A DNA stretch of 64,000 nucleotides from a virus. Numbering within the stretch: position 1 is the first letter of the stretch; each line of letters opens with the position of its first letter. Position numbers and translations under genes: made by a program. Shown here in pieces: positions 12,409-63,313 of this stretch. Where the stretch lies: positions 1 to 64,000 of IMG/VR virus record IMGVR_UViG_3300035670_000169; one strand, written 5' to 3'. Under the pieces are notes generated by a model. The model was not told the DNA's origin, made no database searches, and saw nothing but the letters and a program-made list of their open reading frames with translations.

Positions 12409-12445
12409 AGGGAGGTCCCAACGGGGGTCTCCCTTATTTTCTTTT
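12409..12445 (+). terminator. second plus-strand terminator at the convergent junction
   Basis: AGGGAG pairs with CTCCCT around an inner CCC/GGG, followed on the plus strand by TTATTTTCTTTT. The minus strand lacks a U-run after the stem, so it stops plus-strand transcripts from running into the late genes. It overlaps the very end of the 12434-16543 gene. Confidence 0.65.
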
Positions 12446-15400
12446 CATAGGTGACACTCTACCTATTTTCCTTTGTTTGTTGACAGTAAACTTGCCACCC
12501 TGCTCAAACGATCTGTACTCTGCGTCTTTCCTTGAGAACTTCTCTGGTATATCAAACTCATACCATGGGACGTTATTTTCATCTGTCACAACCCTGACTT
12601 CGACACCAAGCTCCCGTTGAATCAGTTTTGGCCACTCTGAGTATGAATCCCTTACGTATTGATACCCGTTTTCTTTGAAATTAGGGGATAGATCCTCTTT
12701 ACCAGCGGCTTGTATTTCATCATCTGTAAATGGCCTTCCATCATAAACCACAGCACCAAGTCTGTCTGTACCATATCTTTGAATTATAGTTGTTGCTGCT
12801 GGAGTTGGTATTCGTATTGTTGTTTGACCCCCATTAACAGCCTGTTGTATCAGATTGTATAGTTGTGTTCTTTTATACACCCTTCCTCCAGGGACGTCTT
12901 TTTGAAAAAGTTTTTGTCCAGGCGTAAATGATTCTTGGGTAACACCTTGGAGCTTTCTCTGCTGAAGCATGTCTGATTGCAATTCTGTTGCCGTCATAAT
13001 CCACGGCTCATCTTGGGACACAAACACTCTAGTATGAAACATGTTGTTGACTACACTCTGAGATCCAAAGTCAGATTCATTTAGAGAGTAGTCTTGATCT
13101 TGCCAGTGATTTGCAATCCCCTGCTTAAGACCAAGATTTTTTGCAATCCATTCATTTGGAACACTTACAAGTGAAGAAACACCAACGTTGAATTTCTTTC
13201 CAACAAACTCTTTTTTTATTGGCTTTAGTGGTGACTTGGGTCTTGCCTTGTTGGCAGCATTTGCTATGTCAGACGACAGCATTAACGGACCTCTTATTGG
13301 ACCTGGTTTTTTGTTAAATGCTTTTTTAGCCGTTTCTGTAACAAGGCTTGCTGGTTTTTTTTCACCAGCAAATCCGTTTAAAGTTTGAGCATTCATAATA
13401 AAATCAATTGGCCCATACATGTTTAATCTCCTATAGTCTGTCATTGCCTTTGCATTGTTCTTTAATGCTATGGCAATATTCCTTTTCATCAATTCAATTT
13501 GAGCTGCCGTTCTGCTAACCCTCGCAGATGTCGCAATTCTGTAACTTGCTGCAAGGGTTACAGCTGGAGCGTAATTTCTTAAAGACGAATTCAACCATTC
13601 ATCACTTACTTTTACTCCAGATGCGTCAGCTAATGCAATTATTGAATAAATAAGCGAATTCACATTATCATCAGTCCATCCATCGCGCCTGCCATCAGGG
13701 TAAAAACTGGCAGGACTTGTTAATACGCGATCATACCAATGTTCGTTATCTCTGGTCTGGATATCATTCAATAATAGATGAAGATCGTCGTAATAGGCAG
13801 AACTAGCCTCTATGGATTCCGCTGTTAGCCTTGTTGAGAAATTCGACGCGCCTGGGGCCGAAGGATAGATAATTTGTTGCGCTAAATCTCTAGCCATTTC
13901 ATATGAAAACTCCCTGTTGTATGTTTTTGCATAAGAAATTGCATATGTGATTGGATCAACAACAGACTCAAATATGAGCAATTCACCATTCTTGTCAGGC
14001 ATATAGAATTTGTGTACAAGTCCACTTAAGTTTTCGCTGATGAACTCAAACATTTGTTTATCTACCCCCCCATAGTCAAGTTGCTCTGGTGTTATCTGGT
14101 CTATTTTTTCCCTAACAAATTCAAATGGAGTTACGCCGTCAATAATCTTTCTATAATTTACTTCGTCAATATCACTTGCATTATATAATTGAGCTATTGT
14201 GTCTCTATATCCTTTGGAAACAATCTCATCTGTACGCATCATTACATATTGATTTATTTCCTCTTGAGGGCGATCTAACCCATATTCAAGTTCAGCGTTA
14301 TTTTTATCCCCCCATCTTATTTCATCTGGATTTATACCAACATCAGAGAGTTTTTTAACTATATTGCCAGCTCTACGGCCTATTATGCCATTTAGCGAAT
14401 CGACCTCTGACATCATGTCGATCGCGTATTGTGTAGCATAGTCAATCTTTAATTCTATACCAGACGATGTTTTAGGAAAAACTAATTTGAAATCATCACT
14501 TAAATATCGAGCATCTTCCAAAGACTTTAATAACAAAAAACTTGAATTCAACAATTCAGTCATAACATTGATTTTTCTCTCCGCACCTATAAGCATGTTA
14601 TTTAAATTGGATGCGTCAATTGCTCTTTCGTCTATCCTTGAAGGCTGACCAGCTATAAATTGCGATCTGTCAATTGTTGTGTCTAGGTATTGACTAAATT
14701 CTGGGATTATTTCAAGCGGTTTTTCTCGATTAAATGATTCAAATGGAGTATAGTATAAAGAAGTTGATATGCTATCAATGTCATTTCCGTTAAATAAAGT
14801 ATCTGTTGCCTTTTGAAGCAACATGACAGACTCTCTCTTCGCCCTAGATAGTTGATCAAAATAACTTAAATCCATAGACATTATTTCATCTATACTTAGG
14901 TCCTCTATAGATGAAATTCGTCTTGTAATGTCACTAAACTCCATCCCTCTTGAAGCAAGAAAACTTTCAGCGTTCCCGTTAAAATCACTATCTATTATTT
15001 CTTTTACAAATGGAAGGTATAATGAAATACGATCGTCTTCAAATCCTGCTCTTGCGTAGATGGAAAACAAATTAGCTATATCTTCATCAGACGTTGCGTT
15101 CCAAGACCCAAGGGCAGCTTGAACAACACCGTCTACTTCAAAAGAGTTATTAGCTGATTCAGAGGGAAGAAGAAACATCCTTTGTTCAGGATCTATTTCA
15201 ATCTTTTTGTCCGAAAACATATTTTCCATCAGAAATGGCGCTACTGAATTTGAAGCACTGACTTCGCTTTTTGGATCATATGTCATAGGGAAAAGTTTCC
15301 CAAAATCAAGATTTGCTTCAGCGTTTGGTGACAGCTCTAATGTTTTTAAAAACAGATAACCCAGTGAACCGTAATAATCATCATCAATGCTTATTGCATT

Positions 15401-16543
15401 ATTTAAAATTACGCTAGACGTTGCCTCACCACGTCTTTGTAGACTGTTAGAATCAAATCCTATTCTTTCTAAGCCGTAATCAGAATATTTTTGTACTTGA
15501 GCATTTTCAAATGAATATGCACGAGAATATGCATCTCTTAACCTGTCGATATTGATTGACTTACCATCAGCAGACATAACATATTCTCTCAATGAATTAA
15601 CCCTCGCAGAATTTGCAAATTCACTTGGGACATCTGTTGTTGGGGTCTCTGATATTATCTCTTGTATTATCCTTCTATCCCCTTCCGTAAACTCGTCTGT
15701 ATTTAAAAGTTGGCTAAACTGTGCCAGTGACATAGTCCCATCTTCCTTAACCTGTTTGATGGTCTTACTGCCCTCTTGCAATCCTTTGGCCATAAAGACA
15801 CCCCCGCGTTCAATCGGTGCTGGTTGGTACTTTTTCTTTGGTGGCTTCTGTTGGTGTGACCCAGGACCAGGAGGTAAAGCACTTTGCTCTGCCGCCCATG
15901 ATGCCGCTTCTCCAGATCCCAACATGGGAACATCTATGTCTTGAGGGCCCTTCATCCTAGATGCTCTAGCATTTCGAATTACGGATGCAAGTCCAAATCC
16001 ACCAAGCAACACCTCTGGATCTAGAAGATTGTCAACTAAGAAGTTAACAACATCGTTGTCTGTGCCTATAAGCTGAGATGGATCTGTAATGCCTTGTGGG
16101 GCCTCACCGCTAGCTAATGATGTCGCAATAGATGCTGGGTTATAGTTTACCTCTTCTTCCCTACCAAGCATCTGGGCTAATGGTGCTGTGACCAAGAGTC
16201 TTTGAGCGTAACCCAACGGCTCTACAGCAGCAGCATACAAATTAAGGGCAGACATAGCCGCATTGTTAGTGGCTGTTCTAACTGCATTCTGCATTTCTAC
16301 CGCTTGTCCAAGCCCTTCTTCCCCAAGATTCTTGAATGCATAGTATCTATCCTTAGCCATCATGGAAGGAAATATGATCCTGCCATTATCGTCTCTTGGA
16401 TATTCAGTCCCAACCTCTGCTTCTGGAAGCATGAATAGGGCTGGCAAACCGCTAGCCCCAACCAAAGAGTCTTCTGGGGGAGTAAATGTCCCAGCTTGGG
16501 CTGCCTGTGATACAACCCGCTTTCCCTTCTTGCGTGGTATCAT
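12434..16543 (-). CDS. large virion-type polyvalent protein, 1369 aa
   Basis: This protein is likely packaged in or ejected from the virion. Its N-terminus is basic (MIPRKKGKRVVSQAAQ) and is followed by an Ala-rich helical region (AVRTATNNAAMSALNLYAAAVEPL). The middle 900 residues are acidic, AT-rich in coding sequence and unrecognised. Near residues 1165-1195 it has FHTRVFVSQDEPWIMTATELQSDMLQQ, and the end includes WPKLIQRELGVEVRVV. These look like large-polyvalent-protein modules, in which the ExQSD segment is a typical element. Its ATG overlaps the M43 protease stop. An ejection or anti-host role is inference. Confidence 0.7.
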   Translation of the reverse strand: MIPRKKGKRVVSQAAQAGTFTPPEDSLVGASGLPALFMLPEAEVGTEYPRDDNGRIIFPSMMAKDRYYAFKNLGEEGLGQAVEMQNAVRTATNNAAMSALNLYAAAVEPLGYAQRLLVTAPLAQMLGREEEVNYNPASIATSLASGEAPQGITDPSQLIGTDNDVVNFLVDNLLDPEVLLGGFGLASVIRNARASRMKGPQDIDVPMLGSGEAASWAAEQSALPPGPGSHQQKPPKKKYQPAPIERGGVFMAKGLQEGSKTIKQVKEDGTMSLAQFSQLLNTDEFTEGDRRIIQEIISETPTTDVPSEFANSARVNSLREYVMSADGKSINIDRLRDAYSRAYSFENAQVQKYSDYGLERIGFDSNSLQRRGEATSSVILNNAISIDDDYYGSLGYLFLKTLELSPNAEANLDFGKLFPMTYDPKSEVSASNSVAPFLMENMFSDKKIEIDPEQRMFLLPSESANNSFEVDGVVQAALGSWNATSDEDIANLFSIYARAGFEDDRISLYLPFVKEIIDSDFNGNAESFLASRGMEFSDITRRISSIEDLSIDEIMSMDLSYFDQLSRAKRESVMLLQKATDTLFNGNDIDSISTSLYYTPFESFNREKPLEIIPEFSQYLDTTIDRSQFIAGQPSRIDERAIDASNLNNMLIGAERKINVMTELLNSSFLLLKSLEDARYLSDDFKLVFPKTSSGIELKIDYATQYAIDMMSEVDSLNGIIGRRAGNIVKKLSDVGINPDEIRWGDKNNAELEYGLDRPQEEINQYVMMRTDEIVSKGYRDTIAQLYNASDIDEVNYRKIIDGVTPFEFVREKIDQITPEQLDYGGVDKQMFEFISENLSGLVHKFYMPDKNGELLIFESVVDPITYAISYAKTYNREFSYEMARDLAQQIIYPSAPGASNFSTRLTAESIEASSAYYDDLHLLLNDIQTRDNEHWYDRVLTSPASFYPDGRRDGWTDDNVNSLIYSIIALADASGVKVSDEWLNSSLRNYAPAVTLAASYRIATSARVSRTAAQIELMKRNIAIALKNNAKAMTDYRRLNMYGPIDFIMNAQTLNGFAGEKKPASLVTETAKKAFNKKPGPIRGPLMLSSDIANAANKARPKSPLKPIKKEFVGKKFNVGVSSLVSVPNEWIAKNLGLKQGIANHWQDQDYSLNESDFGSQSVVNNMFHTRVFVSQDEPWIMTATELQSDMLQQRKLQGVTQESFTPGQKLFQKDVPGGRVYKRTQLYNLIQQAVNGGQTTIRIPTPAATTIIQRYGTDRLGAVVYDGRPFTDDEIQAAGKEDLSPNFKENGYQYVRDSYSEWPKLIQRELGVEVRVVTDENNVPWYEFDIPEKFSRKDAEYRSFEQGGKFTVNKQRKIGRVSPMKRK

Positions 16544-17733
16544 TGCTTATTCAGTTTTTGAAGTAGTTCGTGTATGTCTTCTGGCTTTCTGCCAACCGAT
16601 TCAGGAATGAATATCTGATCACAATTGCATTGCTGTCCATATACACTTAAAAGCAGTTGCAAATCGTTTGTGGTGACCAAGTGATCTAGATCTAAATCTC
16701 CTTCTGTGCAGTAGTCACAACCAAAGAATGAAAGCATGTGCAAAAGATCAGCCGTACCCACAGCACAGTCTCCGTTGAAGTCACCAAAGCAAAACACTTC
16801 ATCTGAGAATAGCTCTGATCTTTGGTACTCAAGCATAGCATGCATCCTTTCTATCTGCCCAGGTGTAAACACATCCCTACATTCTTCAGCGCAATAATCC
16901 ATATGGTTGTTTGCCTGAAATAATACTCCTGAATATTGGACTTCTGGGCAATAATAACCTGGGACTCCAGGACATCCATAGCTTACTTTAGTAGGTGGTG
17001 TATCGCAGACGTAATCCCCAGTGTGCTCACACGGACCAATGTTCAAGCCACATCCTTGAACCGTTCCAGAATTGTTCTTGAACACATGATGCAACCCACA
17101 ATAGTGTCCCATCTCGTGGGTGAGTGTCTCGTTCTCAAATCTGAATGTAAGCTGTGGCCCATATGTCCCAAAGACCTCAGACTCTACCCATACCCCGTCA
17201 AGATCTGACCAAGGATAGAAGTTCACCCAAGCAAAGCCTAGTATGGAAGAACAGAAGTCTGGTGCTACATACACGTTGCAGTATTCTGCCGTATTCCATC
17301 TTACCGCATCCGTCCATTGAGCCATCTGTGTCCCATATTGAGGGAAGCACACGCCACCTTCGTTCCTGTATGACGTTGCCCATGAGAATGACCCAAGATG
17401 AGTATACGTCACGTCAACCAACTCAAATGATATGTTGGTCCCATCAAAGTCCACATTGAGTTGATCAAACGCGTCTATTATTATGTCAAGTCCTATATTG
17501 CTATTTGGAAAATATTGGTTGTCATGAAGCACATGCACAACACATTTAATGTTTTTGTCTGAATAGGTTCGATTAGCGTAATTAAATTCTCTTGGGAGTA
17601 TGTTCTCTTCAGAGCCCATTACAAAACACTCTTCTTGTGCTGGAGCTGGAGCAGAGCAAAACGAAAGAGTTACACAGGCAACTATAAACCAAAATAATTG
17701 GGATATGGTTTTGTTGTTAATAGTTAATATCAT
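16540..17733 (-). CDS. secreted M43 (pappalysin-type) metalloprotease with dockerin-like tail
   Basis: The protein has 397 residues. Residues 1-33 form a Sec signal peptide with a hydrophobic core (LFWFIVACVTLSF) and an A-x-A type end. The zinc site is H206-E-M-G-H210-Y-C-G213-L-H-H216, an exact HExxHxxGxxH metzincin motif. The Met-turn is N276-H-M278-D-Y, typical of M43. About 14 cysteines suggest disulphides. Residues about 315-370 form a dockerin/EF-hand-like tail (GDFNGDCAVGTADLLHML and GDLDLDHLVTTNDLQLLL). It overlaps both neighbours as ATGA: holin before, polyvalent protein after. A secreted protease in a phage late operon is odd. It could aid lysis, cut surface proteins, or be carried on virions. 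The family call is firm, the role is open. Confidence 0.93.
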   Translation of the reverse strand: MILTINNKTISQLFWFIVACVTLSFCSAPAPAQEECFVMGSEENILPREFNYANRTYSDKNIKCVVHVLHDNQYFPNSNIGLDIIIDAFDQLNVDFDGTNISFELVDVTYTHLGSFSWATSYRNEGGVCFPQYGTQMAQWTDAVRWNTAEYCNVYVAPDFCSSILGFAWVNFYPWSDLDGVWVESEVFGTYGPQLTFRFENETLTHEMGHYCGLHHVFKNNSGTVQGCGLNIGPCEHTGDYVCDTPPTKVSYGCPGVPGYYCPEVQYSGVLFQANNHMDYCAEECRDVFTPGQIERMHAMLEYQRSELFSDEVFCFGDFNGDCAVGTADLLHMLSFFGCDYCTEGDLDLDHLVTTNDLQLLLSVYGQQCNCDQIFIPESVGRKPEDIHELLQKLNKQ

Positions 17734-18194
17734 CTTCTATTCAGATTTACTTTCTCATACGACCTCCCAGCAAAGTATGCCGTGAAGGCAGTAGTCATAA
17801 GAATCTGAAGCATATCGATGTATGCATCCTTCAACTCAAAACTAATCTTTGTAATGCTGTCGATCGCAACAAATATAGTGAAGGATAAAATCAAAAAAAT
17901 CAACATCATCGGCCTGATATTCTTTGATAACCAAGAGTCTGACATCATATCAGACTTCCACCTTTCTGTAACATTATCCTGTGCGTTGGACTCGTAATCC
18001 ATCAGCATCTTCTGGAACTCCATCTTCTCTTGGGCCGACATGTTTGGCTCAAGATCTATGAGTCTCTTCACAACACCAAGGGCCCCTTGGTCTGGAAGCA
18101 GTTCTCCAACTGTGTCCAGAACCTCAGGGGCCTTCTCCTTCAACCATATCCCAACCTTGGTATCCTTAATCTTCTTCCGTCCCTCTCGTTTCAT
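17730..18194 (-). CDS. holin (3TM gene-transfer-release type)
   Basis: The 154-residue protein has a helical N-terminal region (EVLDTVGELLPDQGALGVVKRL) and the segment VTERWKSDMMSDSWLSKNIRPMMLIFLIL, which is characteristic of the Holin_3TMs family. Two or three membrane spans follow (MMLIFLILSFTIFVAI, and YIDMLQILMTTAFTAYFAG) and then a charged tail. Holins permeabilise the inner membrane and time lysis. It overlaps the giant polyvalent gene upstream by 29 bp and the M43 protease downstream by ATGA. Confidence 0.85.
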   Translation of the reverse strand: MKREGRKKIKDTKVGIWLKEKAPEVLDTVGELLPDQGALGVVKRLIDLEPNMSAQEKMEFQKMLMDYESNAQDNVTERWKSDMMSDSWLSKNIRPMMLIFLILSFTIFVAIDSITKISFELKDAYIDMLQILMTTAFTAYFAGRSYEKVNLNRR

Positions 18195-21100
18195 TGTAGT
18201 ACTTGTTGAATAAAAGCGTGACCTTAAACATTTCCTCCCTTATCCTAAATAACTCGTTCTGCTTTTTAGCATACGTCATAGTGTTTGAGTTCCTTATGGC
18301 CCTCTCCTGTGCCCTCAAGTCTCTGAGTCTAGAATCAACTTCCTTAATGGCTTGGTCAAGGCCCATTATGTTTTTGTATCGCTGCTTTGTTGGGTCTGGT
18401 TGTCTTGCCTCTGGATCTTCATACTCAGCAACCAACTGCTTTATCTCGAGTTTTCTTTCCCTGTACTTTCTTGGATGCCATGTCATAGCCTTCTTCCCAT
18501 ATACAGATGAGATAATTGGTATATCGTACGGAGTAATCTCAACAGCTTCATCGGCCATAACGTTGTTGTACCCCTTTCTTACGGCTGTATAAGACTTATC
18601 TACGAATCTACCAAGCCCACCATAGTATGCCTCGAACCAGTGCCACAACCTATCTGGGTTTACATCAACAACACCAGATCTTTCTGCACTTCCGCCCGTA
18701 ATGCTGTTGAGACTTCTGAATGTCTCTTGCATCCATTTTGGTGACCTATATGACATCTCTGACTCTGGGGTATAGTCGTTAGGCATTCTTTCCCTCAAGT
18801 ACTTCTCTCCCAGGTAGTTCTCATTTAACATATTCTCAAGTCCTGGCTTGGCCCACGTGGGTGCAAATGTCTTGGCAACTGTCCCTTCGAATGTCTCCGA
18901 TGTAGTTACGCTGAATGGTGAGAATCCAGCAAGCAGTGATTCCGCCCAGAATGCAGCAGCATCTGCCTCTGATCTCAGTCCAAGCGATCCTTCTGCCATA
19001 GCCACACCAAGATTATAGAACGGGCTAAGGCCATACGCCAGTGGCATTTGGATCCTGTCCTGTCCTTTCATCAAGATGAAGTTTCTAATCTTGTAGAAGT
19101 CATCCACTTGGCTGTACTCTTCTACACCAGCATCGTCCTCGTCGGACATATTCATGTTGTACAATGTAGCAAAGAACCCAAGTGTAGTCAGTGCCATCAA
19201 CGACTTCTGTCCACTGCTTATGCGTTCATGCCAAGCCCTAGAGTCTCCGTTAGGCTTCTTCGCTGGCTTCAGCTGGGTCAGCATCCTAAATGTGTTAGCC
19301 GCACCCTGAACAGCAGCGTTAAAGAATATGTAGTGCGATCCTAGAACGTGACCCATATCACCGTGCTCATTAAAGTTTACGGTAACATTCTTTGCGAGTT
19401 GTGCGGCCTTGTCTTTAGGAGCCCCAGCTTCTACGGCAGATATGTAAGTGGCCAGTCTTATAGTGTCTTCAAACCTGCTGTTCACCTCTTCGATCACACC
19501 AAGAGTAAGTTCATATACTTTGTCACCAACTCTCTTTGCCTTCATCAAGGTTGATGTAGAGCTGAGTTTGTTGATCTCATCAATTACATCCTTGAGTTCC
19601 TTGAAAGAGGAGAAGCCGCTCTTGCCACCCAAGGACATATAGTCAAGATAGTGCTGACCAAATGCGTCTTGACGGTCTCCTGGCCTTCTGGTTGTAAACA
19701 ACTTATATGCTGTTTCAGAGACAGTTTTGGCAAATTGCAGTGGAGAGAACTTAGATCCAAAGATGTAACCACCGCTAGTCTCCTGTTCGTTGATGGCGAA
19801 TATGATGGCCTGTTCAAAGTCTCTTGCATAGTTGGGGACAAAGAATGCTGGGTTCTGAGTGGTTATCGTCTTACGCATAATGTTGATCGTAAGACTTGCC
19901 ATCAACCTAGAGAACCTATCGACCTTGGCCACATCCATCTTCTGTAACGCTCTAGCATGGCTTTGGGCGTTGTCTCCTTTAAAGTGGACATAGTACTTGT
20001 TCCCTTTGAATCTAAACTCCACAGCACCCTTCTTTCCTTCTGAGTTGAGTGTGTTGAACTCGCCGTATGGGATAACCTTCCAGAAGTCTTTTGCTGGGTT
20101 GTTCTGCACCATAGCAGCAAGGGAGTTCATGACCTTGTTCTTTTCACCTCTGGCGATGGTGGACAGGGCTAGGTTGAATATGTTAGCTGGGACGTTGCTG
20201 ACCTCTGACTTTCTCCCTTTGATCCTGCTAAACATCTTTCCTTTAACGGCAAGCCCGCTTCCCCCACGTGGGTAAGCACTGACTATAGTGTTCTTTTCGT
20301 CTGATGCTATACCATCCAATGGGACATAGTTCTGGAACATGTTCGTCCAAGCATCAACTGATTCCTTTGTCTCAAGTCCATACGACACGATATTGCTTCT
20401 GGTCTCCGCAAGCAGTCCATAGAGCATATCGGCAAATGGCTTGATCTTATCCTCCTTCCCTTGGATCATAGAAGCCAACTCTGCTCTACGCTCTGAAGTC
20501 AGACCAGAACCAAATTCTCTCCCGTCTCTAGACAGAACTAGTGCATCCCTTTCATCTGCGTGAGCTAAGTACATGTAGGCATGGACATCCTCGTTAGTTA
20601 TGCCAGACTTCAGCAGTTTTGCAGAATAGTCTTTAAGCATGTCGTATATCCTATCCTGTCTGTAGTTTACGCGTTGTGGCATGAGATCCCTGAACATGCG
20701 GAAGTCTTGCTCTAGAGGCAGTTTCCCCTGTCTCTGTTCGGTTATTTGTGACTGTATGTCTAGTACCCTAGCCATTGAAGACTGGATGACCTTTCTGAAT
20801 ACAAGTACACTCTCTTGAACTGGTGTCCTCTCGCGTGGTATAAACTCTTGTCTAGACGACACACCTTGATTGAGAACTTTGTCCTGAACTACGTCCGTCT
20901 CTGACCCATACTCGTGGGTGACATTATCCACGTTGCTCTCGTTGAAGATGCGCTCATATATATCACGCATATTGTCATTCAACTCAAGCTCCAACGGACT
21001 GCCTTTGATGCCCATGTAAATCAACTCCAACCACTCCCTGAACTTCTCGAATATAGACTTAAGTTTTGGGTCAGCCGTAACACCTTCGTAGATATACTTC

Positions 21101-24100
21101 TCTGCCCCAGATGCGAACATCTCGCTGGTTTCTACCGTCCACTCTGAGTGACCAGCCCAGTCTAGAACCTGTTGTCTTTCTGCTGTGGTAAGCGAGTCCT
21201 CGAAGATGTGCGCCATCTCGTGGATAGGGGATGACACATCAGGATCGGTTAAAGCATACACAATGTACTTGGACTCCTTCATAACAACAGCAGCCCTTCT
21301 GTTCTGGAAGAACACTGGATTGCCGCTGACATCTGTTACGGTAGTTCTGTTGTCCGTCTCGACAGCACTCAAGTTCTCAAGAAGAGTAGGGACGCTGATC
21401 TCCTGACCGTTCTTCACAGCATCATATTGGGCTTTAACAGACTCTACTATAGGCATTGTAGTAGTGCTCAAGCCAATGCTTGGTGGGAACAGCCTAGAAG
21501 CCTTCTTCAAGTATTCCTGTCTTTTCTTTTGCTCTTTGGTGAGGCCACGCTTGCGTCTCTTTTCTTCAAAGTCTTTTTGTATAGCGTTGAGCTTATTCAG
21601 TTCAGATGCGTTAAATGGATCCTCTTTGCTGTACAGAAGTTCTTTTGTGACTGGATCACCGATAGAATCCTGCCAGTACATGTTGTCCTTAAGTATGTGA
21701 AGACGAACCTTTACGTCATCAGAAACAGTGCTGATGACATATGGGTACGATTCATGAACATCATTTCTAAGCACCCTTACCAGAGGTGCTTTTGCATCCA
21801 TACCCTGAGGTCTTACGACCTCAACAACAGAGTACACATATCCAGTGCCTTGATTGTTTCTTGATATGTCTCTGATGTATGGTTCTGCCAACATCCATGC
21901 AAATCCATCCTCCAAGGCACTCAACGGAACCGAGAAATCTTTTCTGTTCTCCCCCTGATATTTTGTTTTGAAATATGGGTTGTCCATTCCGTCCCTGAAG
22001 AACCCAATTATTTGATTTACAGAGTCCCTGTCCTTTACTGTTTTATTTATATTTCTAAATAAAACATCTATAAACTCTCTTCTCGCGGCGAAAGACAGTG
22101 GTGGGCGCAAGGCTTCCCTAAGTACAGTACGAGTTGTTTCGATGTCTGTGTCTATGGCCACCTCAAACCCATCTAGGGCTGCTTGAATAGCTTCCTTATC
22201 CTCTATTTCTATTTTGGGATCAGAGAGTTTCTTCACCAGGTTCTCCCTGAATGAGATAGCCGCATCATTTACCATGGTGGTAATGTTGTCTAGGCTTATG
22301 TTGAATGACTTCGAATTACCCCAGTATATCAATGTTTCTATAATACCCATAGACGACAGGTAGTTAGACAGGTTCTTTGTTCGTCCACCAGAAGTCAACA
22401 CCATCTTTCCATTTGCGTCTGGTGATGTAGTCGCTGACTCATTTATCATACTGGCCAACTTGTCTGCCGAACGCTTGTCACCCGCTGCCCACACGTAACC
22501 AAAGTCGTGGTCCCTCACAGCAAAAAACATCCCCCCTTTACCATTGACAATTGTTACTTGATTTTCATCAGTAATATCCAACGAACCCATGTCGTCTGGT
22601 TGATGGAGCACCACGTTGCCAGAGAAGTCAAGTATCGATCTATCTCTAGTTATAAAGCCATCTTCCTCCAGCTGTGCAAACTTCTCAGTATTCTTGTCGT
22701 AAGATATAGTTATACCGCTAGGAAGTGTAAGATTTGATTGGAACAGAGTTGCATCATCGTTTACTACCATGTTCAACTTATCTTCTCTAGCAGTCCAAGA
22801 GATCTTGTTGTACATGTCTTGAACACTGATCCCTTCCCTCTTCGCCTTATTGGAAATCATTCTGTGGATGATGGCTGCGGTTGCCTTGGCTTCGGCATCA
22901 CCAAGGCCAAACACCTCCCGCATCACCTTCTGCAACTGAGTCTTGTTCTGAGCAGTGAACACATCGTCCTCCACAATCATAGACTTCTTGGACCCTTTGT
23001 TTCCAACGCCAGTGTGGACTATGGCCTTGGCCTTCTTGACCTTCTCCCCGTCTTTCACAAGCTCTGGCTCTATAACAGCAGTGATGACACTCTTTCCAGT
23101 TGGGATATTATTTGAAGGCAGTTCCTTTACCTCCACGTCCATGTCTGGTGTATAGTCCATCCCTATACGAACCCCGTCATAAGTATAGCCCTTGTCCTGA
23201 AGATCCTTAAGGACAGAGTTATATACCCTAGTCACGTACTCTGGCGCAGTTGCTCCGTTGTAAATAAGTTCGTCATACTGGAACAGAGCCTTTGCTGTTT
23301 CCTCTGGATTCCTAGAGAAGATTAGCCTCTGGGCGATCTTATTGAATCTTGATGTAGTTGGTTTGTTCTCTACCCTCAGGTTTCTGTAGAGCTTATTTGC
23401 CTTAGGTAATGTATCTGCCTTTCTTTGGGAAGCAGGAACAACTTCTCTAGCCTTTGTTCTGGCGTTGAGATCTCTTTGTTGGATGTTTCGTTCATATTCA
23501 TTCTGGAATTCTTCACTGTTTAAAACCTCGTCTACTCTGGCCGCTTGTTCTGGGGATTGTGCCTTCATCAACAACGCCTGATATGCTATGTCTACGGCAC
23601 GCTGGCCCTCAAACATGACTGGTGAGCCGTTTTCTACGTCCATAAGGCTCACTCTGTATGGCAAGCCTTCTTGGTTGTATTCGATACCAAGATTTGGTAA
23701 CTGCTCCTGAACAGCGTACTTCTTGTTGTCTATATTGAACGCACCAGTAGCATCTATTTCTACTGTTGGTTTCTGCAAAGACAACCCAACCTCACTGAGG
23801 GGCTTGTCCATTACCTCTGCAATACTGCCAAGCTCATAGATCTTGTTGTCTGCCTCCAATACAAGTGACTGACCGTCTACATACAGGGCCCCAGTCACTG
23901 ATTCAGACAGTCTTGTTGTTCCAAAAGAATTCAATACAGCGACTCTGTTCTGATTCAAAGCCTCCCGAACCGTTACAGAGGCTGGTTCAGTGGCAACCTC
24001 CTGTGGCACGCTTGACACAGACAGTTTTTCTTCTTGGGACTTGTAGTATTTATTTAGAATCAGTTCTATCTCTGAGTCAATCTCTTCTATCTGCTTCTGT

Positions 24101-25860
24101 TCTATGCTATTGGTAGTGACGAACAACGGATCAACTGCCTTTCTGTTGACTTGAGTCTTTGCTAGCTTTGCCTTCTCCACCTCCAGCTGAGCTAGTCTTC
24201 TGAGATCCATTGGATCCATATCCTTCATCATATCCACGCTAGCCATGGACTCCATAAATCTAGCTTGAAGTCTTTTGGTGTCAACCAAATCTGCCAACTC
24301 CTTATCCTCCCCGAACTCAAGATTCAGCTTGGCAACGTTCTCTGGGGCGAGGTTCTCCACCATCTCCACCATCACCTCCCTGTCCACAGGGTTTCCGTTG
24401 ACTTTATATGGGTTGTTCTTATCTGTAGATGGGTTATTAGGTGTTCTGACAGACCCGTCTATATTGGCTCTTCTAGATCTTATGAGTTCAGACACACCAG
24501 CCACAATCCCCTCACCAGGTCCCCCAATCATCTCCAATGCAATTTCTTTTGGGGATATCTCCTGATCGGCAGAAAGCTGTGCAGCGAATTCCCCAGCCCC
24601 TTCACCAACGGTTCCTATACCTGCCGCCCCAATTCCAGACACTAGCGGGGAGACCCCTTTCGCCATCGCCGAGGCAACAAATGAAGCACCGAAGAGAGAA
24701 GTAAAGCCAGAAGCCAGACCGATAGCCATACCCCTGTTAGAAGCCTTATCATAGATCTCTGCGTAAAGGTTTGGGTCATTGAGTACTCTTGATATGTTTT
24801 CACTTGTGGGCTCGAGGTTCATCTCCTGAAGCGTCTCTGTGAGGAACTGTGAGAACGAAAAGCCCTTGTCGAGTACCCCAGCAGCCAGTGACGTTGCAAT
24901 TGGAATAGATTCGACCAAGCCAACACCAGCACCAGGTATAGCAGGAATACCTCCAGCCAAAGCACCTATACCAGCACCTACCCCCGCCCCAGCAGCAAGA
25001 GTGCCCCCAGCAGCTTTCATGCTTTCTTTATTGAACAACAGGGATGCCATCTGCGCTGAGTACAACGGAGCAGCAGTAGGGTGGTGGATCAGGCCCCTGA
25101 GTATCCCAAATGCAGAGTCTCCTTCAGAGTCAACTATATCCAAGAAGTTGCTCACCTCCTCTGACTCCCCATACAGATCTACAAATCTCTCCCTCCTCTT
25201 TGCTGCCTCCAAGTAGTTCTGAACTTCCTCACCATTGGGGTCTACAGCCCCCCTTTCTTTGGCCTTCATCAAATCAAACGAAGCTGACACAGCATCGTTG
25301 TTGACAAGACCATAAGACAGTTCCCTTGCAAGGTCGTCGATGTAGTCACCTACCACGGGCAGGTTTGCTGCAAGTATGGCTGCCCCAGCCAGAGCAGGGT
25401 TGTTAATGTTTTGAGCAGCCACAAGTGGGAGGAAGTCTCTCTCCACCTTACCACCACTGCTTACCTTACCGAGCTGTGCGTCTCTCCACTGACGTTCAGA
25501 ATATCCAGCTATCCTTGTTGCATCTGGCATAGACACGTTACGGAGGAACAGCTCATCCTTTGGGGACAACTCAACCTGAACATCCGCATTTAAAGACCTT
25601 TGCAAAGAATCTTGCAAATCTCTTGGTGAAGCCTGTAGAGTAGTCGGCTCTTGAGTGATTTTTTTTTTTGATGGGGGAAAGTACTCGTCCCTAAACTGAT
25701 CAGCTGTTATCGTTGTCATCCCATTGGATGCAAGATATCCGTGGAGTCTGTTCAGTCTTTCCTGATCCTCAGAATACAACCTGTAGAACTCATCTTTCGG
25801 GAGAGAAGTATTTCCGTTTTCATACAAATACTTATACAGTCTTTCAAACTTATCGTTCAT
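18166..25860 (-). CDS. giant polyvalent virion protein, 2564 aa, with HExxH domain
   Basis: This is the largest gene here. The N-terminus has two short repeats of the type YEN-GNTSLPKDEFYRLY and ASN-GMTTITADQFRDEY. Residues about 250-340 are Gly/Ala-rich and hydrophobic (AGAGVGAGIGALAGG), able to enter membranes. A metallopeptidase-like HEMAHIFEDSLTTAERQ lies near residue 1546. Around residues 1995-2015 there is ITTQNPAFFVPNYARDFEQAI, which fits large polyvalent protein domain 38 (LPD38). Such proteins are thought to be ejected with DNA. No RNA-polymerase motif was noticed. It ends inside the holin gene. Precise roles are inference. Confidence 0.75.
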   Translation of the reverse strand: MNDKFERLYKYLYENGNTSLPKDEFYRLYSEDQERLNRLHGYLASNGMTTITADQFRDEYFPPSKKKITQEPTTLQASPRDLQDSLQRSLNADVQVELSPKDELFLRNVSMPDATRIAGYSERQWRDAQLGKVSSGGKVERDFLPLVAAQNINNPALAGAAILAANLPVVGDYIDDLARELSYGLVNNDAVSASFDLMKAKERGAVDPNGEEVQNYLEAAKRRERFVDLYGESEEVSNFLDIVDSEGDSAFGILRGLIHHPTAAPLYSAQMASLLFNKESMKAAGGTLAAGAGVGAGIGALAGGIPAIPGAGVGLVESIPIATSLAAGVLDKGFSFSQFLTETLQEMNLEPTSENISRVLNDPNLYAEIYDKASNRGMAIGLASGFTSLFGASFVASAMAKGVSPLVSGIGAAGIGTVGEGAGEFAAQLSADQEISPKEIALEMIGGPGEGIVAGVSELIRSRRANIDGSVRTPNNPSTDKNNPYKVNGNPVDREVMVEMVENLAPENVAKLNLEFGEDKELADLVDTKRLQARFMESMASVDMMKDMDPMDLRRLAQLEVEKAKLAKTQVNRKAVDPLFVTTNSIEQKQIEEIDSEIELILNKYYKSQEEKLSVSSVPQEVATEPASVTVREALNQNRVAVLNSFGTTRLSESVTGALYVDGQSLVLEADNKIYELGSIAEVMDKPLSEVGLSLQKPTVEIDATGAFNIDNKKYAVQEQLPNLGIEYNQEGLPYRVSLMDVENGSPVMFEGQRAVDIAYQALLMKAQSPEQAARVDEVLNSEEFQNEYERNIQQRDLNARTKAREVVPASQRKADTLPKANKLYRNLRVENKPTTSRFNKIAQRLIFSRNPEETAKALFQYDELIYNGATAPEYVTRVYNSVLKDLQDKGYTYDGVRIGMDYTPDMDVEVKELPSNNIPTGKSVITAVIEPELVKDGEKVKKAKAIVHTGVGNKGSKKSMIVEDDVFTAQNKTQLQKVMREVFGLGDAEAKATAAIIHRMISNKAKREGISVQDMYNKISWTAREDKLNMVVNDDATLFQSNLTLPSGITISYDKNTEKFAQLEEDGFITRDRSILDFSGNVVLHQPDDMGSLDITDENQVTIVNGKGGMFFAVRDHDFGYVWAAGDKRSADKLASMINESATTSPDANGKMVLTSGGRTKNLSNYLSSMGIIETLIYWGNSKSFNISLDNITTMVNDAAISFRENLVKKLSDPKIEIEDKEAIQAALDGFEVAIDTDIETTRTVLREALRPPLSFAARREFIDVLFRNINKTVKDRDSVNQIIGFFRDGMDNPYFKTKYQGENRKDFSVPLSALEDGFAWMLAEPYIRDISRNNQGTGYVYSVVEVVRPQGMDAKAPLVRVLRNDVHESYPYVISTVSDDVKVRLHILKDNMYWQDSIGDPVTKELLYSKEDPFNASELNKLNAIQKDFEEKRRKRGLTKEQKKRQEYLKKASRLFPPSIGLSTTTMPIVESVKAQYDAVKNGQEISVPTLLENLSAVETDNRTTVTDVSGNPVFFQNRRAAVVMKESKYIVYALTDPDVSSPIHEMAHIFEDSLTTAERQQVLDWAGHSEWTVETSEMFASGAEKYIYEGVTADPKLKSIFEKFREWLELIYMGIKGSPLELELNDNMRDIYERIFNESNVDNVTHEYGSETDVVQDKVLNQGVSSRQEFIPRERTPVQESVLVFRKVIQSSMARVLDIQSQITEQRQGKLPLEQDFRMFRDLMPQRVNYRQDRIYDMLKDYSAKLLKSGITNEDVHAYMYLAHADERDALVLSRDGREFGSGLTSERRAELASMIQGKEDKIKPFADMLYGLLAETRSNIVSYGLETKESVDAWTNMFQNYVPLDGIASDEKNTIVSAYPRGGSGLAVKGKMFSRIKGRKSEVSNVPANIFNLALSTIARGEKNKVMNSLAAMVQNNPAKDFWKVIPYGEFNTLNSEGKKGAVEFRFKGNKYYVHFKGDNAQSHARALQKMDVAKVDRFSRLMASLTINIMRKTITTQNPAFFVPNYARDFEQAIIFAINEQETSGGYIFGSKFSPLQFAKTVSETAYKLFTTRRPGDRQDAFGQHYLDYMSLGGKSGFSSFKELKDVIDEINKLSSTSTLMKAKRVGDKVYELTLGVIEEVNSRFEDTIRLATYISAVEAGAPKDKAAQLAKNVTVNFNEHGDMGHVLGSHYIFFNAAVQGAANTFRMLTQLKPAKKPNGDSRAWHERISSGQKSLMALTTLGFFATLYNMNMSDEDDAGVEEYSQVDDFYKIRNFILMKGQDRIQMPLAYGLSPFYNLGVAMAEGSLGLRSEADAAAFWAESLLAGFSPFSVTTSETFEGTVAKTFAPTWAKPGLENMLNENYLGEKYLRERMPNDYTPESEMSYRSPKWMQETFRSLNSITGGSAERSGVVDVNPDRLWHWFEAYYGGLGRFVDKSYTAVRKGYNNVMADEAVEITPYDIPIISSVYGKKAMTWHPRKYRERKLEIKQLVAEYEDPEARQPDPTKQRYKNIMGLDQAIKEVDSRLRDLRAQERAIRNSNTMTYAKKQNELFRIREEMFKVTLLFNKYYNETRGTEED

Positions 25861-43588: not shown

Positions 43589-43795
43589 TTATTCGTCAAT
43601 CTGTTTTCTTGCCAGAAGTATCTTGATCTCCTGTACATCCTTGATTAACTTATCTATACTACTCTGAAGCACAACAGTTTGCTTCTCGTGTATGTCGAGA
43701 CGCAGGGCAAGCCTGCTTATTTCTACGTTTAACTTTACATACACACCAACCAAACCAACGGCAAGTATGATTATTTGGTAGACGTTTATATCCAT
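43589..43795 (-). CDS. small membrane-anchored coiled-coil protein, 68 aa
   Basis: The frame opens at 43831, but the ATG at 43795 gives MDINVYQIIILAVGLVGVYVKLN, a single N-terminal membrane span. A charged helix follows (EISRLALRLDIHEKQTVVLQSSIDKLIKDVQEIKILL). This layout is common for small phage lysis-associated or spanin/holin-accessory proteins. A TATTTTTG box ends 7 bp before the ATG. Confidence 0.65.
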   Translation of the reverse strand: MDINVYQIIILAVGLVGVYVKLNVEISRLALRLDIHEKQTVVLQSSIDKLIKDVQEIKILLARKQIDE

Positions 43796-45127: not shown

Positions 45128-49089
<3,962 letters not shown>

Positions 49090-51521: not shown

Positions 51522-53639
51522 TCAACCAATTACATTATATTTCCTAAAGAACACCTTGTCAGTAAACTGTGGTTTTGGTTTAGCATTTGGTTTCTGTGCA
51601 GCAAGCAGCGCCAAACCAGAACTAATGGTCAAGTCAAACTTAGTTCTCTTGTCTATCTTAAATGCAATCCAGTCTTCAAGCGTTTTGTTGAAGTACATAT
51701 TCCCCATCTCTCCAGTCTCGTGGTTTATCCCTATGTGGTTGTGTACGTAGTGTTCTATCGCCTGAGCGTGCGCGTGTATCACATCCTGCGAGTTCGATGG
51801 TATGCCTTTGGTCTTTACGTTTACGTGAGACGAGGATGACTTCAGATGTTCTGGCCGATCCATGATATACCCATCGTATCCCCTGCTCTCGAAATGTCTT
51901 ACGATCCCGTACTTGTTGTTCTCTATAAGTAACGGATAACCATAGAAGAAAGCACACATAAGAACGTCCTCGTAGAATATCTTGGCCATGTCTGGACGTG
52001 AAGCGTACTCCACAACAAACATATTAGATGGCCTGTTCATGGAGAACTTGTTGTACATATGCATGGACCCCTTAGACCCCCTGCCATCTAGAGTAGCATC
52101 GATATCATACGAGTCAACACCACCACAACCATATTGACTAAAGGGGGCTATTCGCTGGCCCCTTTCCTCGTTGATGATACAGCGTTCGTCTTCTGGGGGC
52201 AACCAGGATACTCTGAAACGTCCGTTGATGTCTGGGGAAAACACAACCTTCTTGTCTTTCTCCTCCCATATAAAGTTCCCTTGAACCACAGGGTTTGGGA
52301 ATAGGTCTTGGTTGTGCTCTATCTGTTCATAGATCTTACCTACGTTGAAAAGACTCCCAGAGACGCTGTCACGGAACGCTTCGTCTTCGTTGAAGGGGAA
52401 CTGCCTGATAATCTCATTCATTTCTGAAGAGTCGTGTCTCAAGCTGTCGCGTTCATTCTTCAGGAACTCCTTAGCTCCAGTAGATATGTACATACCTTCT
52501 TCTATGCTTTCTACTGGCTTCTCTGGAGTCTCTACTACAGCATTCCCATACTTGTCAAAGAAACCTTCTAGGGCTTCGTAGGCTGGTATGATGATGCGAT
52601 ACATGCCGCTCTTGGTTCTGCCGTTGGCATTGCGTTCGGATGGGTCACTGTCTAGCCACAGTCTCTTGTACTCGTCTCCGCCCTTGTCCATTGGGTTTAC
52701 GGTAGAGCCCATAAGCACCTTCCCAATAATCTTGTTACCAACCAGCAGACACGTCCTTTCTATACGCCAAGCCTCTCTTATGTCCGATGGCTTCTCCCAC
52801 TTTCCAGCCTCATCCAGATATAGCAGGTGTACCTTCTCACCGTCATAGGCGTTGTTTGTCGTGTTCCTCCAGTTGATCACTGTGTTCAACGCCTCTCCCA
52901 CCATAGTGGTCTTGTTCTTCTTCGTAATCCTCTTTGCTGGCTCTCTGAACGCCAACTCCATCCTAGGGTTCGTGGTTCCATCCTGTATAGGCTTGAAGAA
53001 CCATGGGTAGTTTGTGAATATAGATACCACCTTCTTCATGAAGATGTTCTCCTGAGCATCCTTACCAGTCTTCGACTGAATGCCAAGGAGTTTGTCAGAT
53101 ACCTGCGTACCTTCATCCACAAGTATGCTGGAGCAAACGTTAGTATATCCTGAACGTCTGCACTTAACGAATAGCTGACCAAAGCACCTAGGGTCAGCCT
53201 CACACGCTGCAAAGTGTAGTAGTATCTCACGTTGGAATTGATAGAAGCTGGGGTATCCTACATCGATCTTAGACCACTGCAAGAACATATAGTGTCTCCC
53301 AGTTATATATGTTGGAACGCCGTTGTTGTAGAACCACAACCCGTTTCTCCTGCGTTCAAACTCCTTCTCAATATACGACGAGTACTTGTCCTTAAACTCC
53401 ACTGACCTCTCGTTCCACTCGTCTATACTTTTTATCTTAGATATTTCTACAGGTACTGGCAATCTTGTCCAGTACTGCTCAGACTTCTTTTTGTCATGAA
53501 ATAGGATCTGGTTTTTTGGGGGCATCTTGGGAAGGACAACAAGAAGACCGTGGAGTTCAAGAGTTTCCCCCTGTGTCCCGTTAGGATCTATCTTGATGCC
53601 CTTCTCCTTGTAGCCCTTTATGTCAACCAGTGACGACAT
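51522..53639 (-). CDS. terL: terminase large subunit
   Basis: The 705-residue protein shows the terminase ATPase/nuclease plan. FVKCRRSGYTNVCSSILVDEG (about 157-177) is the adenine/Walker A region with KCRRSGYT in the place of a deviant Walker A. HLLYLDEAGKWE is Walker B. GKVLMGSTVNPMDKGG is the coupling motif. The nuclease domain has GCGGVDSYDIDATLDGRGSKG with catalytic Asp residues. It packages DNA through the portal. The gene is preceded by a lipoprotein gene with a TAATG overlap and followed by the portal gene. No small terminase was recognised. Confidence 0.9.
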   Translation of the reverse strand: MSSLVDIKGYKEKGIKIDPNGTQGETLELHGLLVVLPKMPPKNQILFHDKKKSEQYWTRLPVPVEISKIKSIDEWNERSVEFKDKYSSYIEKEFERRRNGLWFYNNGVPTYITGRHYMFLQWSKIDVGYPSFYQFQREILLHFAACEADPRCFGQLFVKCRRSGYTNVCSSILVDEGTQVSDKLLGIQSKTGKDAQENIFMKKVVSIFTNYPWFFKPIQDGTTNPRMELAFREPAKRITKKNKTTMVGEALNTVINWRNTTNNAYDGEKVHLLYLDEAGKWEKPSDIREAWRIERTCLLVGNKIIGKVLMGSTVNPMDKGGDEYKRLWLDSDPSERNANGRTKSGMYRIIIPAYEALEGFFDKYGNAVVETPEKPVESIEEGMYISTGAKEFLKNERDSLRHDSSEMNEIIRQFPFNEDEAFRDSVSGSLFNVGKIYEQIEHNQDLFPNPVVQGNFIWEEKDKKVVFSPDINGRFRVSWLPPEDERCIINEERGQRIAPFSQYGCGGVDSYDIDATLDGRGSKGSMHMYNKFSMNRPSNMFVVEYASRPDMAKIFYEDVLMCAFFYGYPLLIENNKYGIVRHFESRGYDGYIMDRPEHLKSSSSHVNVKTKGIPSNSQDVIHAHAQAIEHYVHNHIGINHETGEMGNMYFNKTLEDWIAFKIDKRTKFDLTISSGLALLAAQKPNAKPKPQFTDKVFFRKYNVIG

Positions 53640-53812
53640 TAGAATCTAACCTCAAGACATGTAACGCAACAAGGCTTTTCACCAGGAAAAATTGGCCCAG
53701 AAGCATTCAATTGCTTGCGCTTGTAGTACCTATTGCTCTTTGCTACCTCTTGTGTTGGTGAGCAAGACGCGAAAACAACAGCAAGGCCCAAGAAGAAGAT
53801 GACTGACTTCAT
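53639..53812 (-). CDS. small lipoprotein, 57 aa
   Basis: The ATG at 53812 overlaps the thyX stop as ATGA, and its TAA overlaps the terminase ATG as TAATG. The product starts MKSVIFFLGLAVVFASCSPTQE, a signal peptide with a lipobox-like FASC, so it is probably lipid-anchored in the envelope. The mature part is short, with CCVTC near the end. Phage lipoproteins can act as outer spanins or block superinfection. Neither is proven here. Confidence 0.7.
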   Translation of the reverse strand: MKSVIFFLGLAVVFASCSPTQEVAKSNRYYKRKQLNASGPIFPGEKPCCVTCLEVRF

Positions 53813-60478: not shown

Positions 60479-60801
60479 TTCCTGAATTTCTCTGCGAATC
60501 CAGCCGAATAGTCTCTATCCTCTTTGGCAAGACCGTTTTCAGCCATCTGTTTCTTCATCTCATCAAGTTCTGCGTACTTCCTGATCAGCTCCTGACAGTC
60601 TACAGCCGTCTGTTTAATCGCCTGTAGCTCTGCTTTTCTGGCCGCACCCCCCGCTTCTGGGTCAACAGGCTTCCTGATCTCATCGATCATATTGTTTATA
60701 GCCTCCTGCATGCTGGACATAAGACGATCTATGGCGTCTACCGTGTCAAATCTCGACGTAGAGGAGGTCTTCAGTTCTGGTTCTGTAGTATTCCTTGCCA
60801 T
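60475..60801 (-). CDS. hypothetical helical protein, 108 aa
   Basis: The protein (STSRFDTVDAIDRLMSSMQEAINNMIDEIRKPVDP, then KAELQAIKQTAVDCQELIRKYAELDEMKKQMAENG) is a long charged helix pair. It starts 56 bp inside the end of the GroES-like gene and overlaps the next gene as ATGA. I associate such Ala/Glu-rich proteins with Bacteroidota phage structural genes. It may be a small terminase or scaffold-like factor, but this is a guess. Confidence 0.6.
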   Translation of the reverse strand: MARNTTEPELKTSSTSRFDTVDAIDRLMSSMQEAINNMIDEIRKPVDPEAGGAARKAELQAIKQTAVDCQELIRKYAELDEMKKQMAENGLAKEDRDYSAGFAEKFRK

Positions 60802-61330
60802 CGATCTTGAATCTATAGTCCATATTCTTCCTGAACCCTACGTGGTCACCTACCTTCAGACCCAGATCCTCCAGTTCCTGTGACAAGAACGCTACACTTC
60901 CCTTTGTTGGGAGCGGTTCCTCCAGAACCACCAGCTCTATGATGTCCGACTTGAGTTTTGGCTCTTCGTGAACAGCCTCCAACACCGCCCACCCAGACAT
61001 AGGGTGTATGTCCCCAGTCTCAGAGCACTTGTATGCTATGCACTGACTGTTTATCGTCTCCTTCTTCTGATACTTTACGAGGTAGTGGTCCTTGATATCA
61101 GCGAGAATCTGACCATCGTTGATCACAACGAGATGGTGGAAGTACAGTATGTCCCCCTTCTTTGCTCCTCCATCGTACTTGTATGGGACATTGACTATAA
61201 CCCCTTCATTCACCCTGTGCTTGAACTCGTCAAATTTGGTGTCTACGTAGAGTTCTTGACCATTGGATAGGGTAACCGTGTCATTGAAACGCTTTTCAAT
61301 GAACACGATAAAATTATCTAGTGACATCAT
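60746..61330 (-). CDS. GroES-like co-chaperonin fold protein, 194 aa
   Basis: The start is ATG 61330, overlapping the upstream stop in ATGATG. The C-terminal 90 residues resemble Cpn10: IIELVVLEEPLPTKGSVAFLSQELEDLGLKVGDHVGFRKNMDYRFKIDGKEYYRTRTEDLLYVEI. This matches the GDxVxFxKxxxxxxxxDGxEYxxxxxxDIL ending of GroES. The first half has a similar beta-rich run (GVIVNVPYKYDGGAKKGDILYFHHL), so it may be a double domain. T4 gp31 is a phage precedent that helps GroEL fold capsid protein. The mobile loop is not obvious. Confidence 0.72.
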   Translation of the reverse strand: MMSLDNFIVFIEKRFNDTVTLSNGQELYVDTKFDEFKHRVNEGVIVNVPYKYDGGAKKGDILYFHHLVVINDGQILADIKDHYLVKYQKKETINSQCIAYKCSETGDIHPMSGWAVLEAVHEEPKLKSDIIELVVLEEPLPTKGSVAFLSQELEDLGLKVGDHVGFRKNMDYRFKIDGKEYYRTRTEDLLYVEI

Positions 61331-61479
61331 CTCTTTCTGTATGGGAACTTCACGTTGAGGACCTCTCTCCTCTTGCTGCACCCACACTCCTCACCAACAA
61401 CTTTGTGCACTAGCTTATCTATGCCAGTAGCGTTGGTGATTTTGGCGATAGTATCGCCGAGACCTTTGCTTTCCTCCAT
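61327..61479 (-). CDS. conserved small phage protein with CGC motif, 50 aa
   Basis: MEESKGLGDTIAKITNATGIDKLVHKVVGEECGCSKRREVLNVKFPYRKR. The GLGDTIxKITxATGIxKxVxxxxGxxCGCxxRxxxLNxxFPY pattern is a family I recognise from Bacteroidota phages. The CGC may bind metal. The gene's TGA overlaps the GroES-like ATG. Its function is not known. Confidence 0.8.
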   Translation of the reverse strand: MEESKGLGDTIAKITNATGIDKLVHKVVGEECGCSKRREVLNVKFPYRKR

Positions 61480-62726: not shown

Positions 62727-62855
62727 TTATCTTCCCTGACCCCTGTATTTCTTCTCGTAGACCTTAGAGGATGGGTTGCTAGATGATGATTTAGAATGCT
62801 TTCCGTGGGTCTTCTTGCTGTTGAGTGTGACCTTAGATGATGATGACTTAGCCAT
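62727..62855 (-). CDS. conserved small Ser/Lys-rich phage protein, 42 aa
   Basis: It begins MAKSSSSKVTLNSKKTHGK and ends KVYEKKYRGQGR. The pattern MAKxxxxSKVxLNxKKxHGKxSKxxxSxxSKxYxKxYRGQGR is a very common tiny basic protein of Bacteroidota phages. It fills the gap between the endolysin and KKYGSGG genes, and its ATG overlaps the endolysin stop. Confidence 0.8.
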   Translation of the reverse strand: MAKSSSSKVTLNSKKTHGKHSKSSSSNPSSKVYEKKYRGQGR

Positions 62856-63312
62856 TATAGTTAGTGTATACTGTTCTTCCTTTACTCTTGAATGCCTTTA
62901 GAACCTGGTTTCTGTTCTTGTCTTTGTTGTACGACACGTGCACCCAGTCTGGATTCTTGTCTGTACCGAACTCCCAGATCAGCTGATCGAACTTCAGCTC
63001 TTTCTTGATGAAGTCAAAAATCTCTTTGTTTGTGACGCCACCGTAAATATCTCCATCAATGTCGAGCGCACGCCCTTCCATGTGATCGGAGGTCTTTGAC
63101 CCCCCGACTGCATCGTTGAGTCTTTTGCATCTGAAACCTGAGGAGATGCCGATCGGCGCATCAAAGTGTTCTCGTAGGGGCTGAAATACATTTTCTGCTA
63201 TATATATAAGGTTCTGTATCTGTTCCTCGTTGGGTATGTTCTTTATACCCTTCTGTATAGCCGTCTGAGATTTAATTACCTCCTGAAGGCTAAGGTTCTT
63301 GCTTAGGTTCAT
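62848..63312 (-). CDS. M15-family peptidase endolysin
   Basis: The 154-residue protein (start ATG 63312; the frame extends to 63345 inside the methyltransferase gene) has SGFRCKRLNDAVGGSKTSDHMEGRALDID, with the zinc ligands H77 and D84, and WVHVSY with H125, the SxHxxGxAxD...WVHxS motif of M15/VanY-type peptidases. E114 in IWEFG is the likely catalytic acid. It cuts peptide cross-links or stem peptides in peptidoglycan during lysis. No signal peptide is present, so it needs a holin, and one lies at 17730. Confidence 0.9.
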   Translation of the reverse strand: MNLSKNLSLQEVIKSQTAIQKGIKNIPNEEQIQNLIYIAENVFQPLREHFDAPIGISSGFRCKRLNDAVGGSKTSDHMEGRALDIDGDIYGGVTNKEIFDFIKKELKFDQLIWEFGTDKNPDWVHVSYNKDKNRNQVLKAFKSKGRTVYTNYNG

Positions 63313-63313
63313 G

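Follow-up and report, generated by a model that had tools for sequence, protein, structure and literature searches.

A predicted secreted M43 (pappalysin) metalloprotease recurrently encoded beside lysis genes in several phage lineages

Why should a phage genome carry, in overlap with its holin gene, a gene for what appears to be an exported metalloprotease? The question is raised by open reading frame 16540–17733 (minus strand) in a stretch of viral DNA of 64,000 nucleotides (the window), which comprises bases 1–64000 of an IMG/VR virus record of 69,303 bp. The two ends of this record are identical over a 127-bp direct terminal repeat, so the phage genome of about 69 kb is read as complete. 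Its TerL is about 40–47% identical to those of the Flavobacterium elemo phages and Podoviridae sp. MW202828, and Cellulophaga phages were matched as well; moreover, the bacterial relatives of the protease are almost all from Bacteroidota, mostly Flavobacteriales, among the matches listed. Together these relationships point to a Bacteroidota host, probably an aquatic member of that group.

Bacteroidota-type promoters follow the pattern TTTG-N17-23-TAnnTTTG; this consensus had no match within the window, and matches to sigma-70 promoters there were no more numerous than expected by chance. The window also encodes a collagen-like tail fibre protein of 1,170 amino acids (45128–48640, minus strand) in a stretch that is GC-rich by comparison with the rest, and a protein of 213 amino acids (60746–61387, minus strand) whose C-terminal half matches GroES (Cpn10).

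An M43 metalloprotease gene in the late block

The reading frame is open throughout and encodes 397 amino acids. Its product scores 61.3 bits with Pfam Peptidase_M43, for which the cut-off is 23 (E 1.3e-16), and the best phmmer matches among PDB sequences are mirolysin (1.6e-15) and ulilysin. An AF2 model built on 87 sequences (mean pLDDT 74.5, with parts of residues 218–264 below 50) superseded one built on 24 phage sequences (pLDDT 59.6); in Foldseek it matched ulilysin at 2.7e-13, and the top 21 matches were all ulilysin, mirolysin (zymogens included) or PAPP-A/PAPP-A2, that is, proteins of the pappalysin fold. The zinc-binding motif HEMGHYCGLHH (amino acids 206–216; 17086–17118, minus strand) has ligands that are invariant in phage and bacterial relatives alike. 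Alignment of relatives places the Met-turn NHMDY at amino acids 276–280 (16894–16908, minus strand), including the tyrosine-switch residue Tyr280, the counterpart of Y286 in CPL1 (PMC11674741). Zinc ligands, Glu207, Met278, Tyr280 and Cys36 are unchanged in all 24 aligned phage proteins. The protein had no match of any kind in PHROG. The complete metzincin reported in the earlier note is therefore borne out by open frame, motifs and family profile: by sequence and modelled fold this is an intact M43 (pappalysin) metalloprotease, for which proteolytic activity is predicted.

Late genes lie on the minus strand, and near the end of their block the order is a 2,564-aa LPD38-bearing protein (18166–25860, minus strand; Pfam LPD38, 1.3e-20), the holin (17730–18194, minus strand), the protease and a 1,369-aa protein (12434–16543, minus strand). 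The last three genes are linked through ATGA overlaps, as had been claimed, with the holin gene overlapping the start of the M43 gene and the 1,369-aa gene its end; both overlaps were checked in the DNA. Identification of the holin was upheld by a match to PHROG 3427 (4e-21), with Pfam GTA_holin_3TM matched at 14.6 bits, under its cut-off of 24.8; most close relatives likewise have a holin 5' of M43. The description of the 1,369-aa protein as virion-type found no support: it had no match in Pfam or PHROG, is unassigned to any family and has relatives, about 35% identical, only in loci L008 and L012.

A position in the late block beside very large late proteins could suit a virion-associated protease acting at entry. 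This is very improbable, since the protein begins with a predicted signal peptide and its gene, in other lineages, has lysis genes rather than tail genes for neighbours.

The endolysin candidate of the window phage, an M15 peptidase (62848–63345, minus strand; Pfam Peptidase_M15_3, 5.5e-20; PHROG 894 endolysin, 2.4e-40), is encoded far from the M43–holin pair. A 68-aa TM and coiled-coil protein (43589–43795, minus strand), encoded within the structural block, has a weak match to the Rz-like spanins of PHROG 739 (0.0039). Its relatives in other phages adjoin M43, holin or amidase genes, and in lineage II phages the gene stands beside an amidase gene, a position that favours its classification as a lysis gene; with weak PHROG matches to both kinds, it is a candidate antiholin or holin, or a candidate i-spanin. 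A 57-aa lipoprotein (lipobox FASC; 53639–53812, minus strand), encoded just before the terminase gene, is a possible o-spanin; of 15 other phage records, 2 contain relatives of it. A simple loss of spanins offset by M43 is unsupported, as the genome has both of these candidates.

Predicted export, latency and the C-terminal tail

A Sec signal peptide is predicted at amino acids 1–32 (17638–17733, minus strand) from a hydrophobicity scan and from reading the sequence by eye: a hydrophobic stretch is followed by an AxA site, A30-P31-A32, before Q33. N-termini of relatives are divergent and hydrophobic, and end in Q ahead of a conserved Cys. These features agree with the Sec-type signal proposed in the earlier note, and we infer Sec export from them. 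That such use of Sec would be unusual for a phage was mistaken. Phages use Sec routinely, as in signal-arrest and Sec-dependent endolysins and in spanin lipoproteins.

Cys36 (17626–17628, minus strand), the fourth residue counting from Q33 and among those invariant in the phage proteins, is a candidate cysteine-switch. Promirolysin has Q20 and C23 at the same spacing as Q33 and C36 here, and its Cys23 binds the catalytic zinc to confer latency (PMC8259862). The prosegment of the window protein is short and AF2 residues 26–51 have a pLDDT below 50, so zymogen control is put forward by analogy. The lower pappalysins mirolysin, ulilysin and cytophagalysin share with the window protein the catalytic domain, Met-turn, tyrosine switch and cysteine-switch position; by comparison with them the window protein forms a separate clade, has the short prosegment and carries a tail with two Ca loops.

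This tail, at amino acids 315–369 (16627–16791, minus strand), holds a pair of dockerin-like Ca-loop motifs whose residues D318/D322/D329 and D346/D357 are invariant across relatives. The motifs bear out part of the earlier description of a dockerin-like tail, but Dockerin_1 (PF00404) was absent from the window protein even at E<0.1 and NF041540 likewise gave no match, and membership of dockerin type I was rejected. In relatives, matches to Dockerin_1 or to the GC-type dockerin were sub-threshold only.

A different tail is found in clade 3, the M43 proteins of which are about 660 amino acids long. Their C-terminal stretch of about 37 residues aligns with the sorting domain that M43 proteins of Bacteroidota carry for T9SS (an HHalign probability of 92.7, where 30 column shuffles gave at most 1.4), although it is shorter than the full domain and has no Pfam or NCBIfam match; it may be functional or vestigial. 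Shortened tails of this type were seen in phage M43 proteins of other lineages (L045:7787–7921, L057:9522–9656 and L248:7222–7356), the L248 group scoring 53.6. It is possible, judging from these tails, that the phages carrying them use the host type IX secretion system. The window clade has Sec features only: the sorting tail was looked for there and was absent (probability 0.3), and the window protein was rejected as T9SS cargo.

Recurrence beside lysis genes in several phage lineages

Sixty dereplicated M43 loci, retrieved by M43 queries and not by lysis-gene queries, were scored with custom profiles for holin, M15, amidase and the TM/coiled-coil lysis-associated protein. Among the 53 loci with 700 bp on both sides of M43, a same-strand lysis gene directly adjoins M43 in 31 and lies within 2 kb in 41; for the other genes of the same loci, which served as control, a lysis gene is adjacent in 40 of 326 (12%). 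Related loci are not independent and kinship inflates the adjacency count, so the variety of arrangements is the stronger point. At least four distinct arrangements occur on several phage backbones: M15-holin-M43-GroES (L010, L013, L016 and L024), M15-M43 (L019 and L025), holin-TM-M43 (L033, L261 and L265), M43-TM-M15 (L045, L055 and L220) and holin-M43-amidase (L254), with holin-M43, as in the window phage, also among those found. Parsimony on the M43 tree requires 10 changes of arrangement, through which a lysis neighbour is mostly kept. The linkage that the earlier note proposed looking for in metagenomic contigs is thus general across several phage lineages, and this recurrence beside lysis genes suggests that the protease may help to open the envelope or free virions.

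Some loci are arranged otherwise. Seven loci of lineage II (L032, L035–L039 and L041) have M43 followed directly by GroEL-GroES, with the TM-amidase pair elsewhere; and in L248–L252 no lysis gene directly adjoins M43, L252 being a 152-kb contig. In the related phage MW202828, GroEL-GroES is present and M43 was not found. DUF5675 (PF18925) lies within holin-M43 cassettes at L269:5116–5592 and L275:6882–7343, and is possibly a further lysis-associated family.

A profile scan of IMG/VR viral contigs gave 239 viral relatives of the window protease. Phage relatives outside its clade are 37–49% identical to it, clade 3 about 33%; and bacterial relatives, which form a separate clade, only about 25–33%. 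The phages themselves range widely, with TerL identity to the window of 69–77% in lineage I, 47–48% in lineage II and 24% in lineage III, and no TerL similarity detected in further M43-bearing backbones. Among annotated phage records, tblastn with three M43 queries found only MT837139, an unannotated fecal record of 7.6 kb. In the phylogeny, 25 phage sequences are split from 61 Bacteroidota sequences (the bacterial side drawn from the best 80 loci) by a branch with a support of 98, which, subject to a long-branch warning, argues against repeated fresh capture from bacteria.

These data bear on whether M43 is a moron gene unrelated to lysis, giving an extracellular benefit or remodelling the host surface (matrix degradation, peptide nutrition or superinfection exclusion). 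M43 is abundant in the host group, with at least 593 Bacteroidota stretches matched; the GroEL-GroES linkage of lineage II fits such a gene, as does L252 with its M43 and no adjacent lysis gene. A moron would not be expected to rejoin lysis genes repeatedly across rearrangements, however, and the well-supported split from Bacteroidota M43, long-branch warning included, also counts against this explanation, which we consider improbable.

Where present, M43 is intact and under purifying selection: pairwise dN/dS was 0.04–0.14 for M43 pairs with dS below about 1.2, values near dS 1 being rough. The gene is absent from three near-full-length lineage I relatives (G030, G031 and G032; TerL 71–75%) that keep the holin, which makes M43 accessory and dispensable for lysis in general. 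It is a frequent yet dispensable companion of lysis genes. Absence from all close relatives together with disabling changes had been named as what would overturn the earlier note; absence was seen in these three, and disabling changes were not. The three relatives lacking M43 could point to host contamination or a decaying passenger, but the 127-bp terminal repeat, the conserved position of the gene in many other phage contigs, a dN/dS well under 1 and catalytic sites that are never disabled leave this scarcely credible, and the conservation across phage contigs refutes it.

Accessory status also fits an optimising role in which lysis itself is independent of the protease. Acting just after lysis, or before it from the surface, the enzyme would shave receptors and other surface proteins so that debris and infected neighbours do not capture progeny. 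A similar role has been proposed for the metallopeptidase of Maribacter phage Molly (PMC8776804), and the T9SS-like tail of clade 3 would place the enzyme outside the cell. That tail is missing from the window clade, however, and the close association with holin and endolysin genes, while it speaks for dosage at the lysis stage, is compatible with both readings. We regard this alternative as unlikely, though one to be kept in view.

Proposed role and comparison with known systems

The reading we prefer, with a probability of roughly 0.6, is that the M43 protein is an accessory protease of the lysis stage, coexpressed with the holin, exported by Sec, latent at first and cutting envelope proteins so that virions are freed. 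From its operon position, the protease would be produced late in infection along with the holin; host Sec would carry it across the inner membrane, and the cysteine-switch prosegment would hold it latent. The enzyme, dependent on zinc and probably on calcium, would then cleave host envelope proteins around lysis, and the outer membrane would yield together with its protein layers, releasing the virions. Two versions of this can be envisaged: rupture of the outer membrane, spanin-like in effect and not in kind, or release of virions held by surface proteins and debris. The observation in the earlier note is confirmed, and its interpretation is partly supported.

The most attractive role for the protease is the third, outer-membrane step of Gram-negative lysis, which spanins and disruptins perform. 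Unlike these it has no lipobox, TM-anchor architecture or short amphipathic peptide, and it would be an enzyme; membership of the spanins (Rz/Rz1 or u-spanin) was rejected on its AxA-type cleavage context and the lack of a PHROG match. More tentatively, and with the odds against it, such proteins could be outer-membrane lysis effectors of a class of their own: exported pappalysin zymogens of Bacteroidota phages that would replace or complement spanins and disruptins by proteolysis of the outer-membrane or surface protein layer, with T9SS routing in some lineages. Among tailed phages that infect Gram-negative hosts, about 13% have no spanin that can be recognised (Kongari 2018, cited in PMC12819732). 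For whatever replaces it there, M43 recurring in the lysis modules of Bacteroidota phages is a concrete candidate, and one that offers a one-residue catalytic knockout as control.

The only phage protein matching the window model in BFVD at E<=0.001 was the metallopeptidase of Maribacter phages Molly and Colly, described as a 199-aa matrixin-type enzyme with a lipoprotein domain (PMC8776804). It is likewise a secreted metzincin of flavobacterial phages, and differs from the window protease in its matrixin family and lipoprotein domain.

The earlier note knew of no standard phage module of this kind. Within the literature covered, chiefly papers outside subscription, this holds for Bacteroidota phages: no description of M43 or pappalysins in phage lysis modules was found there. 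A precedent exists in Listeria prophages, where Mtz-Tim, a Sec-exported metzincin with a TIMP-like lipoprotein, is accessory and often lies downstream of holin-lysin genes; expression of Mtz together with Tim raised sensitivity to phage lysis (PMC8235301). As a phage-borne, exported, accessory metzincin linked to lysis genes, Mtz is the closest functional precedent for the window protease; it is a metzincin according to that report. Mtz-Tim belongs to temperate phages of Gram-positive hosts and includes a lipoprotein partner, whereas neither neighbour of the window M43 (holin and 1,369-aa protein) has a lipoprotein signal; with no TIMP-like lipoprotein gene adjoining, membership of the Mtz-Tim pair was rejected. 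What is new is a secreted, lysis-linked metzincin in phages of Gram-negative bacteria with no adjacent lipoprotein partner. To the pairing with holin-lysin known before from Listeria prophages it adds one more case, from other phages and hosts.

A lipoprotein-like gene lies next to or near M43 in L248–L251 only. At L248:4095–7356, two tandem M43 genes follow such a gene, which is small, and L250:4082–7347 looks alike; the arrangement is reminiscent of the Listeria metzincin and lipoprotein pair.
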